From Candidatus Eiseniibacteriota bacterium (lineage in GTDB: Bacteria; Arandabacterota; Arandabacteria; JAGLYR01), in NCBI GenBank assembly GCA_023132135.1, contig JAGLYR010000080.1, forward strand, positions 1-6,020: DNA of 6,020 bases. The letters are read 5' to 3'. A program made the translations under genes and the position numbers. The notes beneath the pieces were generated by a model. That model was not told where the DNA came from and ran no database searches. It was given only the letters and a program-made list of their open reading frames with translations. Positions 1,707 to 6,020 of the stretch are shown in pieces (within the stretch, counting starts at the first letter, position 1; each line of letters opens with the position of its first letter).

Positions 1707-3371
1707 GTGTTTGACAGCGAAGAGATCAAGCGAATCTCAGGGCAGAAAAAACGTTGGCAGAAGGATCTTCCGGATTGCTCTGCCGCGGGTCCCTTTGAGA
1801 CGGTCTCCGGTGCGCCGGTGGAGTTCCTGTGCACACCCGAGGATGTGAGGGAACTTGACTACACCAGGGATCTCGGGTTCCCGGGGATGTACCCATACAC
1901 CAGGGGTGCTTACGGGACCATGTACCGGGGCCGCCAGTGGACGATGCGCCAGTTCTCGGGGTTCGGGTCGGCAGCCGATACCAACCGTCGATTCCACTTC
2001 CTGCTCGAAAAAGGACAGACCGGCCTCAGCACCGCCTTCGACATGCCCACGATCATGGGCTTCGACTCGGATCACGCCAGATCCTTGGGCGAGGTAGGGA
2101 AATGCGGGGTTGCGATCGATTCCCTCGAAGACATGGAAACCCTCTTTCGTGGGATTCCGCTCGACAGGGTCAGTACCTCCATGACCATCAATGCCCCGGC
2201 GGCTATCCTTCTGGCGCTGTACATCGCCGTGGGCGAGAAACAGGGAGTCCCGTCCGCTCGGCTTCAGGGAACCATCCAGAACGACATCTTGAAGGAATAC
2301 ATGGCGCAGAAGTCATGGATTTTTCCTCCCGGACCCTCGATGCGCATCATCACGGATATTCTGGCTTTCTGCACCGAGCACGTGCCCAAGTGGAACACGA
2401 TCTCCATCAGCGGCTATCACATTCGGGAAGCCGGATCGACGGCGCTTCAAGAGCTGGCATTCACCCTGGCCGACGGTTTTGCCTATGTGGAGGCGGGGAT
2501 CGCTGCAGGGCTGGACGTCGACGATTTCGCGCCCCGCCTCTCGCACTTCTTCAACGCTCACCTGGATTTCTTTGAGGAAATCGCCAAGTACCGCGCTGCC
2601 CGGCGCATCTGGGCGCGCCACATGAAGGAGAAATACGGGGCGAAGAAACCGGAATCCCTCCGGCTTCGATTTCACACGCAAACGGCGGGGTGCTCGCTCA
2701 CGGCGCAGCAACCGGAGAACAACATCGTGCGGACAGCGTTCGAAGCGCTGTCCGCGGTGCTCGGAGGCACCCAATCGTTACACACCAACTCCATGGACGA
2801 GACCCTGGCACTGCCGAGCGAAAAGGCGGTGACCATTGCTCTGCGGACCCAGCAGATCATTGCGTCTGAGACCGGGGTGGCCAACACCGTTGATCCTCTG
2901 GCCGGATCGTACCTGCTGGAGTCCCTGACCAGCCGACTGGAGCAAGGGGCGGAGGAGTATTTCAGAAAAATCGAAAGCCTGGGTGGGGTAATCGCGGCTC
3001 TGGAAAAAGGTTTTTTCCAGACGGAGATCTCGAGGGCGGCCTATCGGTACCAGCTGGCTATCGAGAAGAAGGCCCGCATCGTAGTCGGCGTGAACGAGTA
3101 TGTGCAGCCTGACGAGAACCTGGACATCGATCTTCTGGAAATTGATCGCTGTGTGGAGGAGGATCAAGTCAAGCGCCTCAAGGTGTTGCGGGAGCGCCGG
3201 GACAACGGCGCCGTTGGGCAATCTCTGGAGGCGCTGCGATCGGCGGCTGGGGGATCGGACAATATGATGCCTCGTTTCCTGGACTGCGCGCGTTGCTATG
3301 CTACCGAGGGAGAGATCATAGATGTTCTCAGAGAGGAGTTCGGGGAATACAAGGATCCGAAGTTCTTCTGA
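1707..3371 (+). CDS. icmA: Isobutyryl-CoA mutase large subunit (methylmalonyl-CoA mutase family)
   Basis: Catalyses the adenosylcobalamin-dependent carbon-skeleton rearrangement of an acyl-CoA, predicted isobutyryl-CoA to n-butyryl-CoA. The 554-aa product is the substrate-binding TIM-barrel subunit only; the B12 domain is a separate gene. Residues align without gaps to Propionibacterium methylmalonyl-CoA mutase with an offset of 6. Conserved are Y69, T71, M72 and R76 (Y75, T77, M78, R82), S108 (S114), T189 and Q191 (T195, Q197), H238 (H244, catalytic) and R277/S279 (R283, S285). The two specificity positions differ: F83 replaces Tyr89 and Q201 replaces Arg207. Phe/Gln is the isobutyryl-CoA mutase pattern; loss of Arg207 should abolish recognition of the methylmalonyl carboxylate. 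A110 at the position of the diagnostic Asp of 2-hydroxyisobutyryl-CoA mutase, and Phe instead of its Ile, argue against that enzyme. Reference residues are recalled, not aligned by software. The family is certain; the substrate call is strong but untested. Confidence 0.88.
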
Positions 3372-3397: not shown

Positions 3398-3805
3398 ATG
3401 GATCGAAAGATCAGAGTACTGGTCGCCAAACCAGGACTGGACGGCCATGATCGGGGCGCGAAAGTTGTGGCGAGCGCACTCCGGGACGCCGGGATGGAGG
3501 TCATATACACGGGTCTCCACCAGACACCCGAGGGGATTGTCGAGGCTGCGGTGCAGGAGGACGTGGATGTTGTCGGCCTGAGCGTTCTTTCCGGTGCTCA
3601 CATGACGTTGTTCCCGCGGATCGTCGAACTCCTGAGGGAAGCCGGTGTGGAAGGCATGCTGATCATCGGGGGCGGCATTATTCCCGCGGACGACCACGAA
3701 TTCCTTCGGGAGAAGGGTGTCGAGAAGGTTTTCACGCCGGGAGCGCCGACTTCGGAGATTGTGGATTACATACGATCCTGGTTTGAGAAACGGAAGACCG
3801 TGTAG
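3398..3805 (+). CDS. icmB: Isobutyryl-CoA mutase small, B12-binding subunit
   Basis: Cobalamin-binding subunit that pairs with the large subunit encoded 26 bases upstream. The 135-aa product is a single Rossmann-like B12-binding domain, matching the size of the separate IcmB/McmB proteins (about 135 aa). The base-off/His-on signature is complete: DGHDRG at residues 15-20 with H17 as the lower cobalt ligand, SVL at 62-64, and GGG at 91-93 for the nucleotide tail. The N-terminus [20 protein letters not shown] is typical of the family. An in-frame ATG at 3293 would overlap icmA by about 79 bases and add 35 residues without family character, so it is rejected. The B12 domain alone cannot separate isobutyryl- from methylmalonyl-CoA mutase; that call rests on the large subunit. 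Confidence 0.92.
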
Positions 3806-3853: not shown

Positions 3854-4993
3854 TTGTTCGAACTGGAAGAAGAACACCGCATGATCAGGGAAATGGTGCG
3901 GGACTTCGCCGTCAGCGACATTGAGCCTCGCGCGGCCGAGATTGACGAGACAGGTGAGTTCCCCTGGGATGTCATCAGAAAGATGGGGGATCTGGGTCTC
4001 ATGGGAATCCCGTTCCCGCAGGAGTGGGGAGGGGGCGGTGGAGACACGCTGGCCTACGCCATTGGCGTCGAGGAGGTTTCGCGGGTCTGCGGATCCACGG
4101 GTATCACAATGGCGGCCCATATCTCTCTCGGGACCTACCCGATCTACAGATTCGGTACGGAGGAGCAGAAACAGAAGTACCTTCCCCGGCTCTGTTCGGG
4201 CAAGGCGCTGGGGGCGTTTGCTCTGACCGAGCCGAATGCCGGAAGTGATGCGGGGGGAACGGAAACCACGGCGGTCCGGGATGGCAACGAGTATGTACTG
4301 AACGGCACGAAGAACTTCATCACCAGTGCATCCCTGGCGGAGGTCTGCATTGCCACGGCCGTGACCGAAAAGGGCCAGGGAACCCATGGCATCTCGGCTT
4401 TCCTGGTGGAGAAAGAGACCCCGGGGTTCAGACCGGGCAAGAAGGAAGACAAGCTGGGGCTCCGGGGCTCGAATACCGGCGAGCTCATTTTTGAAGATTG
4501 CCGTATTCCCGCCGCCAATCTCCTGGGGAAGGAAGGGCAGGGATTCGGGATTTTCATGAACACCCTGGATGGGGGGCGGATCAGTATCGGGGCGATGGCT
4601 CTGGGGATTGCCCAGGGCGCCTTCGATGCGAGTCTGAGGTTTGCCGGGGAGCGCAAGCAGTTCGGGCGCCACATCGGCAGGTTCGGAGCCATCCAGGGGA
4701 TGCTGGCGGACATGGCCACGGAAATTGAGGCGGCGCGCCTGATGATATACCACGCGTCCATGCTGAAAGACCAGCAAAAGCCCTTCTCGGTGGAGTCGGC
4801 GATGTGCAAGCTCTACGCCTCGGAAGTGGCCATGCGGGTGACCACCAAGGCGATCCAGATCCACGGTGGGTACGGTTACATGAAGGACTACCCCGTGGAG
4901 CGCTATTTCAGAGACGCGAAGCTGACGGAGATTGGTGAAGGGACCTCGGAAATCCAGCGGCTGGTCATCGCCCGGTCATACTTGAAGTCGTAG
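3854..4993 (+). CDS. Short-chain acyl-CoA dehydrogenase, probably butyryl-CoA dehydrogenase
   Basis: FAD enzyme that forms the alpha,beta double bond of an acyl-CoA and normally passes electrons to electron-transfer flavoprotein; cytosolic. The 379-aa length is standard for the short-chain group. Visible are the N-terminal helical domain (EEEHRMIREMVRDFA), the middle-domain signature FALTEPNAGSDAGGTETTA starting at residue 122, YVLNGTKNFITSAS (147-160), the C-terminal FAD-contact segment RKQFGRHIGRFGAIQ (267-281), IQIHGGYGYMKDYPVERYFRDAK (335-356) and the GEGTSEIQR motif. E362 is the predicted catalytic base, at the position of MCAD Glu376. A Gly stands where many relatives have Tyr just before it. 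The start is TTG with a good ribosome site. Placement after an isobutyryl-CoA mutase suggests butyryl-CoA as substrate, giving crotonyl-CoA; isobutyryl-CoA or another branched acyl-CoA is possible and motifs alone cannot decide. Confidence 0.9.
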   Translation: MFELEEEHRMIREMVRDFAVSDIEPRAAEIDETGEFPWDVIRKMGDLGLMGIPFPQEWGGGGGDTLAYAIGVEEVSRVCGSTGITMAAHISLGTYPIYRFGTEEQKQKYLPRLCSGKALGAFALTEPNAGSDAGGTETTAVRDGNEYVLNGTKNFITSASLAEVCIATAVTEKGQGTHGISAFLVEKETPGFRPGKKEDKLGLRGSNTGELIFEDCRIPAANLLGKEGQGFGIFMNTLDGGRISIGAMALGIAQGAFDASLRFAGERKQFGRHIGRFGAIQGMLADMATEIEAARLMIYHASMLKDQQKPFSVESAMCKLYASEVAMRVTTKAIQIHGGYGYMKDYPVERYFRDAKLTEIGEGTSEIQRLVIARSYLKS

Positions 4994-5058: not shown

Positions 5059-6020
5059 ATGGCAGCTCAGTCAGCAGTGATCGTAAGTGCCGTACGGACG
5101 CCCATCGGGCGGCTCCTCGGTGCCCTTTCGTCGGTTTCGGCGACGGATCTGGGGGCTATCGTTGTGAGGGAAGCTGTCAGCCGGGCGAGTATTGAACCCG
5201 GGGAAGTCACCGAGGTGATCATGGGAAACGTGGTGGGAGCAGGGCTGGGGCAGAATCCCGCCCGCCAAGCTGCCATTTTCGCCGGCCTTCCTCCCGAAGT
5301 CTGGGCCATGACCATAAACAAGGTCTGCGGCTCCTCGCTGAAGGCCGTGACGCTGGCGGCCCAGGCTGTGATCCTCGGGGATTCCGAAGTCGTGGTGGCG
5401 GGCGGGCTGGAGTCCATGAGCCAGGCACCCCATTTGCTTCCCAAGGCCCGGACCGGCTATCGCCTTGGCAACGGCGTCCTGGTGGATTCCATGGTGTGGG
5501 ACGGCCTGTGGGACAAGTACGAGGACTTCCACATGGGGAACACGGGTGAGCTCGTGGCGGAGAAGTACGGCATCTCCAGGGAGGAACAGGACGAGTATGC
5601 CGTGAACTCCCACCGGAAGGCCATCGCCGCCATAGAAGGCGGGCTTTTCAAGGAACAGATTGTTCCGGTCACGATCAAGGGACGAAAGGGGCAGGAGACC
5701 GTCGTGGAGGTGGACGAGGGACCTCGGAAAGACACCACGGTTGAGAAGCTGGCCAAGCTCAGACCCGCGTTCAGGAAGGATGGAAGCGTGACTGCCGGGA
5801 ACGCTCCGGGAGTCAATGACGGTGGTTCGGCCGTGGTCGTGATGACCGAGCAGAAGGCCGCCGAGCGGGGGCTCAAACCCTTGGCAAGGATTACCGGCTA
5901 TGCCGTGTCCGGAGTGGAGCCCAAGTGGGTGATGATGGCTCCGGTCAAGGCTGTCCAGAATCTCATGGCGAAGACGGGTTGTAAGCTGGAGGACTTCGAT
6001 CTCATTGAGCTCAACGAAGC
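5059..6020 (+). CDS. Thiolase (acetyl-CoA C-acetyltransferase), 3' end beyond the window
   Basis: Thiolytic cleavage of acetoacetyl-CoA, or another 3-ketoacyl-CoA, to acetyl-CoA, or the reverse condensation. The window contains 320 complete codons of a protein usually about 390 aa. It opens with [12 protein letters not shown], has the nucleophilic Cys90 in [28 protein letters not shown] near 116-132, [25 protein letters not shown] around 157-181, [13 protein letters not shown] around 247-258, and stops within the ELNEA motif. The catalytic His of the GHP motif and the second Cys of CxGGG lie outside. Departures from common acetoacetyl-CoA thiolases are Ser rather than Gly two residues after Cys90, TGE for TAE at 162-164, and WVMMAPVKA (290-298) where MGxGP is usual; chain-length preference is therefore uncertain. 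Last in the visible operon, it would complete beta-oxidation of the butyryl-CoA made by the mutase. The gene is cut by the window edge, not visibly broken. Confidence 0.93.

Follow-up and report, generated by a model that had tools for sequence, protein, structure and literature searches.

A probable isobutyryl-CoA mutase encoded with butyryl-CoA-type oxidation genes on a single contig of a Candidatus Eiseniibacteriota genome

The genes at 1707-3371 and 3398-3805 are most probably (roughly 0.85 by our estimate, from sequence comparisons) those of the large and small subunits of an isobutyryl-CoA mutase that depends on adenosylcobalamin, and their operon would oxidise isobutyryl-CoA via butyryl-CoA to acetyl-CoA. 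The window, the whole stretch of DNA analysed here, is one complete contig of 6020 bases (C325) from a host genome of 3.4 Mb that is 96% complete in 345 contigs. Its six genes all run in the + direction, and because the gaps between them are small (0, 51, 26, 48, and 65 bp), they suggest a single operon. The genes, together with three signature codons numbered against the methylmalonyl-CoA mutase (MCM) of P. shermanii, are as follows.

186-725, + strand: corrinoid adenosyltransferase, CobA/CobO/BtuR (PF02572 and TIGR00708 above cut-off)
726-1655, + strand: MeaB-type G-protein chaperone, 309 aa (PF03308 and TIGR00750 above cut-off)
1707-3371, + strand: mutase large (substrate-binding) subunit, IcmA-like, 554 aa, GTG start (Pfam PF01642, PDB alignments, tree)
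1953-1955, + strand: TTC codon of F83 (Tyr89 of P. shermanii MCM)
2034-2036, + strand: GCC codon of A110 (Ala116 of MCM; Asp117 of 2-hydroxyisobutyryl-CoA mutase)
2307-2309, + strand: CAG codon of Q201 (Arg207 of MCM)
3398-3805, + strand: mutase small, cobalamin-binding subunit, IcmB-like, 135 aa (PF02310 and TIGR00640 above cut-off)
3854-4993, + strand: short-chain (butyryl-CoA-type) acyl-CoA dehydrogenase, 379 aa, TTG start (PDB matches)
5059-6020, + strand: acetyl-CoA acetyltransferase (thiolase), truncated at the contig end (PF00108, PDB matches)

A GGAGGA motif at about 1691-1696 lies directly 5' of the GTG start of the large subunit, and the Pfam MM_CoA_mutase match spans this subunit over almost its entire length. 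The translated small subunit carries D-G-H-x-x-G and S-x-L motifs. The adenosyltransferase reading frame opens at ATG 135, the family matches start at residue 25-27 of that frame, and GTG 186, which follows a run rich in G, is more likely to be the start codon.

The initial annotation had read F83 and Q201 as replacements of Tyr89 and Arg207, and both pairwise PDB and multiple alignments bore this out: F83, Q201, and A110 align under Tyr89, Arg207, and Ala116 of P. shermanii MCM, with the motifs joined without a gap. The Tyr89 column holds Phe in PDB entry 5req and Tyr in 1req. We derived the signature rule from the reference sequences in the alignment. Human and P. shermanii MCM read Y/R/A at the three positions, and all MCM references have Tyr/Arg. 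The 2-hydroxyisobutyryl-CoA mutases (HCMs; PDB 4r3u, Methylibium, and Xanthobacter Xaut_5021) read I/Q/D, so that A110 of the window stands against Asp, as had been proposed. Xanthobacter Xaut_5043, which we take to be a pivalyl-CoA mutase (PCM), has Leu/Asn/Leu. The F/Q/A set of the window was found in actinobacterial (Streptomyces-type) IcmA orthologues and in a plasmid-borne gene annotated as IcmF. The assignment of Tyr/Arg to MCM and Phe/Gln to isobutyryl-CoA mutase thus held across the references; from sequence, Phe/Gln would indicate a substrate without the free carboxylate of methylmalonyl-CoA and does not name the acyl-CoA. Related mutases in other genomes (L138-L145 and L126) bear further residue sets, namely I/V/I, F/Y/A, F/I/A, L/T/V, L/N/L, and I/S/I.

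The F/Q signature is neither chance nor a sequencing error, because all relatives of at least about 64% identity in whole-genome searches share F and Q, the first Y/R sequence appearing at 63.5%. That closest Y/R sequence (L112, G016:C22:133302-134825) lies about 10 kb from an F/Q mutase (L090, 122043-123689) on the same contig. Both residues occurred together in 34 of 34 distinct Y/R sequences and in 93 of 93 F/Q relatives; since the two groups were selected by these very residues, the telling point is the missing mixtures, and no Y/Q or F/R sequence was found among the aligned references and relatives. M113, W204, and Y310 of the window follow the split too, each being present in at least 83 of the 93 F/Q relatives.

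The catalytic and CoA-binding positions that had been described as kept (Y69, T71, M72, R76, Q191, H238, R277, and S279) are all present in the window, albeit invariance is confined to Q191 and H238. Among the F/Q relatives, Q, H, or R often stands in place of Y69 and N in place of T71, and IcmA mostly has Gly at M72 and R277. The presence of these residues is therefore not diagnostic. The CoA-binding stretch of residues 69-72 (1911-1922) drifts across the F/Q clade. Counting against an isobutyryl-CoA mutase, the window protein agrees with MCM at 11 of the 17 positions by which IcmA and MCM differ, though its F/Q relatives do so too and the differences look like actinobacterial specialities. 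A structure prediction from 12 aligned sequences reached a mean pLDDT of 63, with the active-site stretches 20-86, 112-134, and 201-203 mostly below 50.

The three signature columns were masked before tree building. The careful tree comprised 54 sequences and, because of their long branches, excluded IcmF, PCM, and two aberrant Y/R sequences; its IcmA rows were actinobacterial orthologues standing in for Streptomyces IcmA, 94-96% identical in six genomes of 7-10 Mb and 73% identical in the most distant two. One 100/98 branch split all Y/R enzymes, including the single-chain MCMs and the second mutase of the host itself, from the F/Q enzymes, IcmA, and HCM, and the window protein fell on the F/Q side. 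Forcing it into the Y/R side cost 83.8 log-likelihood units and was rejected (p-AU 0.0004). HCM formed a clade of its own (100/100) that did not include the window, and appears to have derived from inside the F/Q group; a clade of F/Q enzymes excluding HCM was neither supported nor rejected (p-AU 0.241). Xaut_5043 lies far from the window protein and is 36% identical to it.

The host genome contains exactly two detectable mutases. The other one, at 3197-4753 of contig C326, is of split-subunit length and 57-59% identical to the window protein and carries Tyr/Arg. It is bordered on one side by the gene of a VOC-family methylmalonyl-CoA epimerase (133 aa) and on the other by those of a biotin carboxyl carrier, a biotin carboxylase, and a carboxyltransferase, and the contig also bears two 3-hydroxyacyl-CoA dehydrogenases and a crotonase; apart from the mutase and the crotonase, these names were assigned by eye from the sequences. 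Because of its Tyr/Arg pair and the adjoining epimerase and carboxylase genes, this mutase is likely the MCM of the host. The gene set fits the conversion of propionyl-CoA to succinyl-CoA, and the window enzyme would therefore not be needed as an MCM.

The neighbouring genes in the window fit butyryl-CoA. Among the best PDB matches of the dehydrogenase are bacterial acyl-CoA and butyryl-CoA dehydrogenases and the short-chain enzymes of mammals, whereas ACAD8 (1rx0), the isobutyryl-CoA dehydrogenase, scored much lower; the best PDB matches of the thiolase are acetyl-CoA acetyltransferases. At 80 F/Q loci, the genes nearby were the small subunit (77), MeaB (60), the adenosyltransferase (58), an acyl-CoA dehydrogenase (41), and a thiolase (30), and the commonest order, adenosyltransferase-MeaB-large-small, is that of the window. 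The loci had been selected for similarity to the window protein and with patterns including EYMAQKSW, which biases them to Q201, and several end at contig ends, so the counts describe close relatives and not mutases overall; the whole-genome search hits were free of that pattern bias. For the Y/R genes within the same 80 loci, a carboxyltransferase was nearby in 7 of 7 cases and an epimerase in 4 of 7. Relatives of the cluster occur in Planctomycetota, Coatesbacteria, Krumholzibacteriota, Zixiibacteriota, Peptococcaceae, and others, and the genomes nearest to the host in the whole-genome searches belong to the same class. One draft genome of 2.5 Mb (G039) gave 19 mutase matches, many below 50% identity, and so has either undergone an exceptional gain of copies or been binned from more than one organism.

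We also surveyed how the host might form and consume isobutyryl-CoA. A VorB-family subunit, among five such oxidoreductase hits, passed its NCBIfam cut-off (540.8 versus 399). In the host genome, no methylmalonate-semialdehyde dehydrogenase scored above cut-off (best 252.5 versus 448.5), the ECH_2 search for 3-hydroxyisobutyryl-CoA hydrolase matched only the C326 crotonase, and the E1 dehydrogenase family gave only a marginal 69-residue match. The conventional valine route via methacrylyl-CoA to propionyl-CoA thus seems absent, as far as absences from a 96% complete draft in 345 contigs can be taken, and isomerisation to butyryl-CoA would therefore be an outlet for isobutyryl-CoA. In the pathway that we propose, the adenosyltransferase would make the adenosylcobalamin cofactor and MeaB would load it and remove damaged cofactor. 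Through a radical rearrangement, the mutase would move the carbonyl group of the thioester from one carbon to the next, converting isobutyryl-CoA and n-butyryl-CoA into each other; here it would probably run towards butyryl-CoA. Isobutyryl-CoA could come from valine through the VorB-family 2-oxoacid:ferredoxin oxidoreductase or from isobutyrate. Butyryl-CoA would then be oxidised by the adjoining dehydrogenase, followed by the crotonase and a 3-hydroxybutyryl-CoA dehydrogenase from contig C326, and the adjoining thiolase would cleave the product into two acetyl-CoA.

An ordinary MCM tolerating two substitutions might be suspected from the closest curated models, which bear the MCM name, and from the identity with the MCM of the host itself. 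We consider it highly improbable, given the rejection in the tree test, the consistent pairing of the two changes among relatives, and a Y/R MCM already present with its carboxylase and epimerase genes. Much the same low probability attaches to an HCM, although the top-scoring PDB match is the HCM 4r3u and HCM shares the tree side of the window: the marker residues Ile and Asp, found also in two plasmid HCMs, are Phe and Ala here, and the HCM clade excludes the window. A pivalyl-CoA mutase of the Xaut_5043 type was discarded, as the window protein has neither its Leu/Asn nor more than distant identity to it.

A Phe/Gln mutase acting on another acyl-CoA without a carboxylate, such as the 2-methylbutyryl-CoA/valeryl-CoA pair from isoleucine or isovaleryl/pivalyl-CoA, is improbable in our judgement, albeit less so than an MCM or an HCM. 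The two residues rule out only a carboxylated substrate, and VorB-type enzymes would also yield 2-methylbutyryl-CoA and isovaleryl-CoA. IcmF has weak isovaleryl- and pivalyl-CoA activity too. Moreover, organisms that degrade isobutyrate are closely related to those that degrade 2-methylbutyrate (PMC5017805). Conversely, the exact signature is common to IcmA and IcmF, the pivalyl-CoA mutase differs at all three positions and is only distantly related, and the dehydrogenase and thiolase of the operon fit butyryl-CoA. It is similarly doubtful that the Phe/Gln clade of anaerobes and candidate phyla is functionally mixed and that the window branch prefers another pair, for example 2-methylbutyryl-CoA/valeryl-CoA; if so, these anaerobes would possess a general 'de-branching' enzyme for acyl-CoAs that stem from amino acids. 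Somewhat less unlikely is the reverse direction, in which isobutyryl-CoA is made from butyryl-CoA to prime branched-chain lipids or to yield isobutyrate; this alternative overlaps with the isobutyryl-CoA mutase reading. The reaction is reversible, the thiolase and dehydrogenase could work synthetically as well, the Streptomyces mutase is considered a source of building blocks (PMC2847961), and candidate genes occur in isobutyrate-forming clostridia (PMC7764203). However, isobutyryl-CoA needs an outlet in a host with VorB in which no valine-to-propionyl-CoA route was found, and the same gene cluster is present in an isobutyrate degrader (PMC5017805). 

Isobutyryl-CoA mutase and its four-gene cluster are already known, and the window represents such a cluster in a new host. 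Syntrophothermus lipocalidus, an isobutyrate degrader that forms butyrate by isomerisation, carries the four-gene cluster Slip_0757-0760, with homologues in other prokaryotes, one group of which is linked to sulfate reducers (Narihiro et al. 2016; PMC5017805). There, the genes were assigned as isobutyryl-CoA mutase by annotation and physiology, without an enzyme assay (PMC5017805), and they later served as markers of isobutyrate degradation (PMC6687939; PMC8674449). As in the window, a cob(I)alamin adenosyltransferase, a MeaB-like gene, and separate large and small subunits are clustered in the anaerobe S. lipocalidus TGB-C1 (PMC5017805), although it belongs to Syntrophomonadaceae; its cluster was compared by published description. 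IcmA/IcmB of Streptomyces cinnamonensis shares the separate subunits and Phe/Gln/Ala. The large subunit of the window is 53% identical to a Streptomyces-type IcmA orthologue over 559 positions, and differs in that an insert of 16 residues following G426 is missing, as are most residues specific to actinobacterial IcmA. Fused IcmF also has Phe/Gln/Ala and ties a G-protein chaperone to the mutase, but was rejected as a candidate: the window has the mutase, G-protein, and B12 parts as three separate genes, its large subunit is only 37% identical, and the NCBIfam IcmF model gave 359 bits where its cut-off is 1500. HCM resembles the window in Gln at 201, and the MCM on C326 is of the same family but differs in its Tyr/Arg pair and its propionyl-CoA carboxylase and epimerase neighbours.

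The initial annotation had favoured an isobutyryl-CoA mutase over an MCM, and the masked tree, the Y/R paralogue of the host, and the operon content support this; neither Tyr nor Arg was found at the signature positions, and the window lies outside the MCM side. Its expectation that automatic annotation would be wrong held only in part. The window passed a broad subfamily model named after MCM but fell below the MCM equivalog NF006944 (645.8 bits versus a cut-off of 876, a weak test as that model describes the 721-position single-chain form), and since only the broad model was passed, a pipeline name would be vague, not flatly wrong. The passage of PMC7764203 that cites Cracan 2010 describes fused isobutyryl-CoA mutases as widely misnamed methylmalonyl-CoA mutase. 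Our analysis corrects a likely misnaming of the window mutase and adds a tree test that does not depend on the signature, a side-by-side view of the two mutases of a single genome, the apparent lack of the usual valine route, and a distribution that extends across uncultured phyla. It also offers an in-genome rule, by which a Tyr/Arg mutase that adjoins carboxylase and epimerase genes would be the MCM and a Phe/Gln mutase that adjoins genes for adenosyltransferase, MeaB, and butyrate oxidation would be the isobutyryl-CoA mutase, and it suggests how uncultured anaerobes without the conventional valine pathway could process valine or isobutyrate. As many phyla hold relatives of the cluster, genome-based models counting all of them as MCM would misassign propionate metabolism.

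No Rfam family matched in the window. Directly before the operon, a near-perfect hairpin occupies 96-142, and ATG 135 of the adenosyltransferase reading frame falls within it. Segment 90-150 folds at -43 kcal/mol (z -8.9), equalled by no shuffle. A 28-base half of the hairpin gave 16 genome matches at up to 3 mismatches against 0 for the reversed control, which points to a REP-like repeat family.
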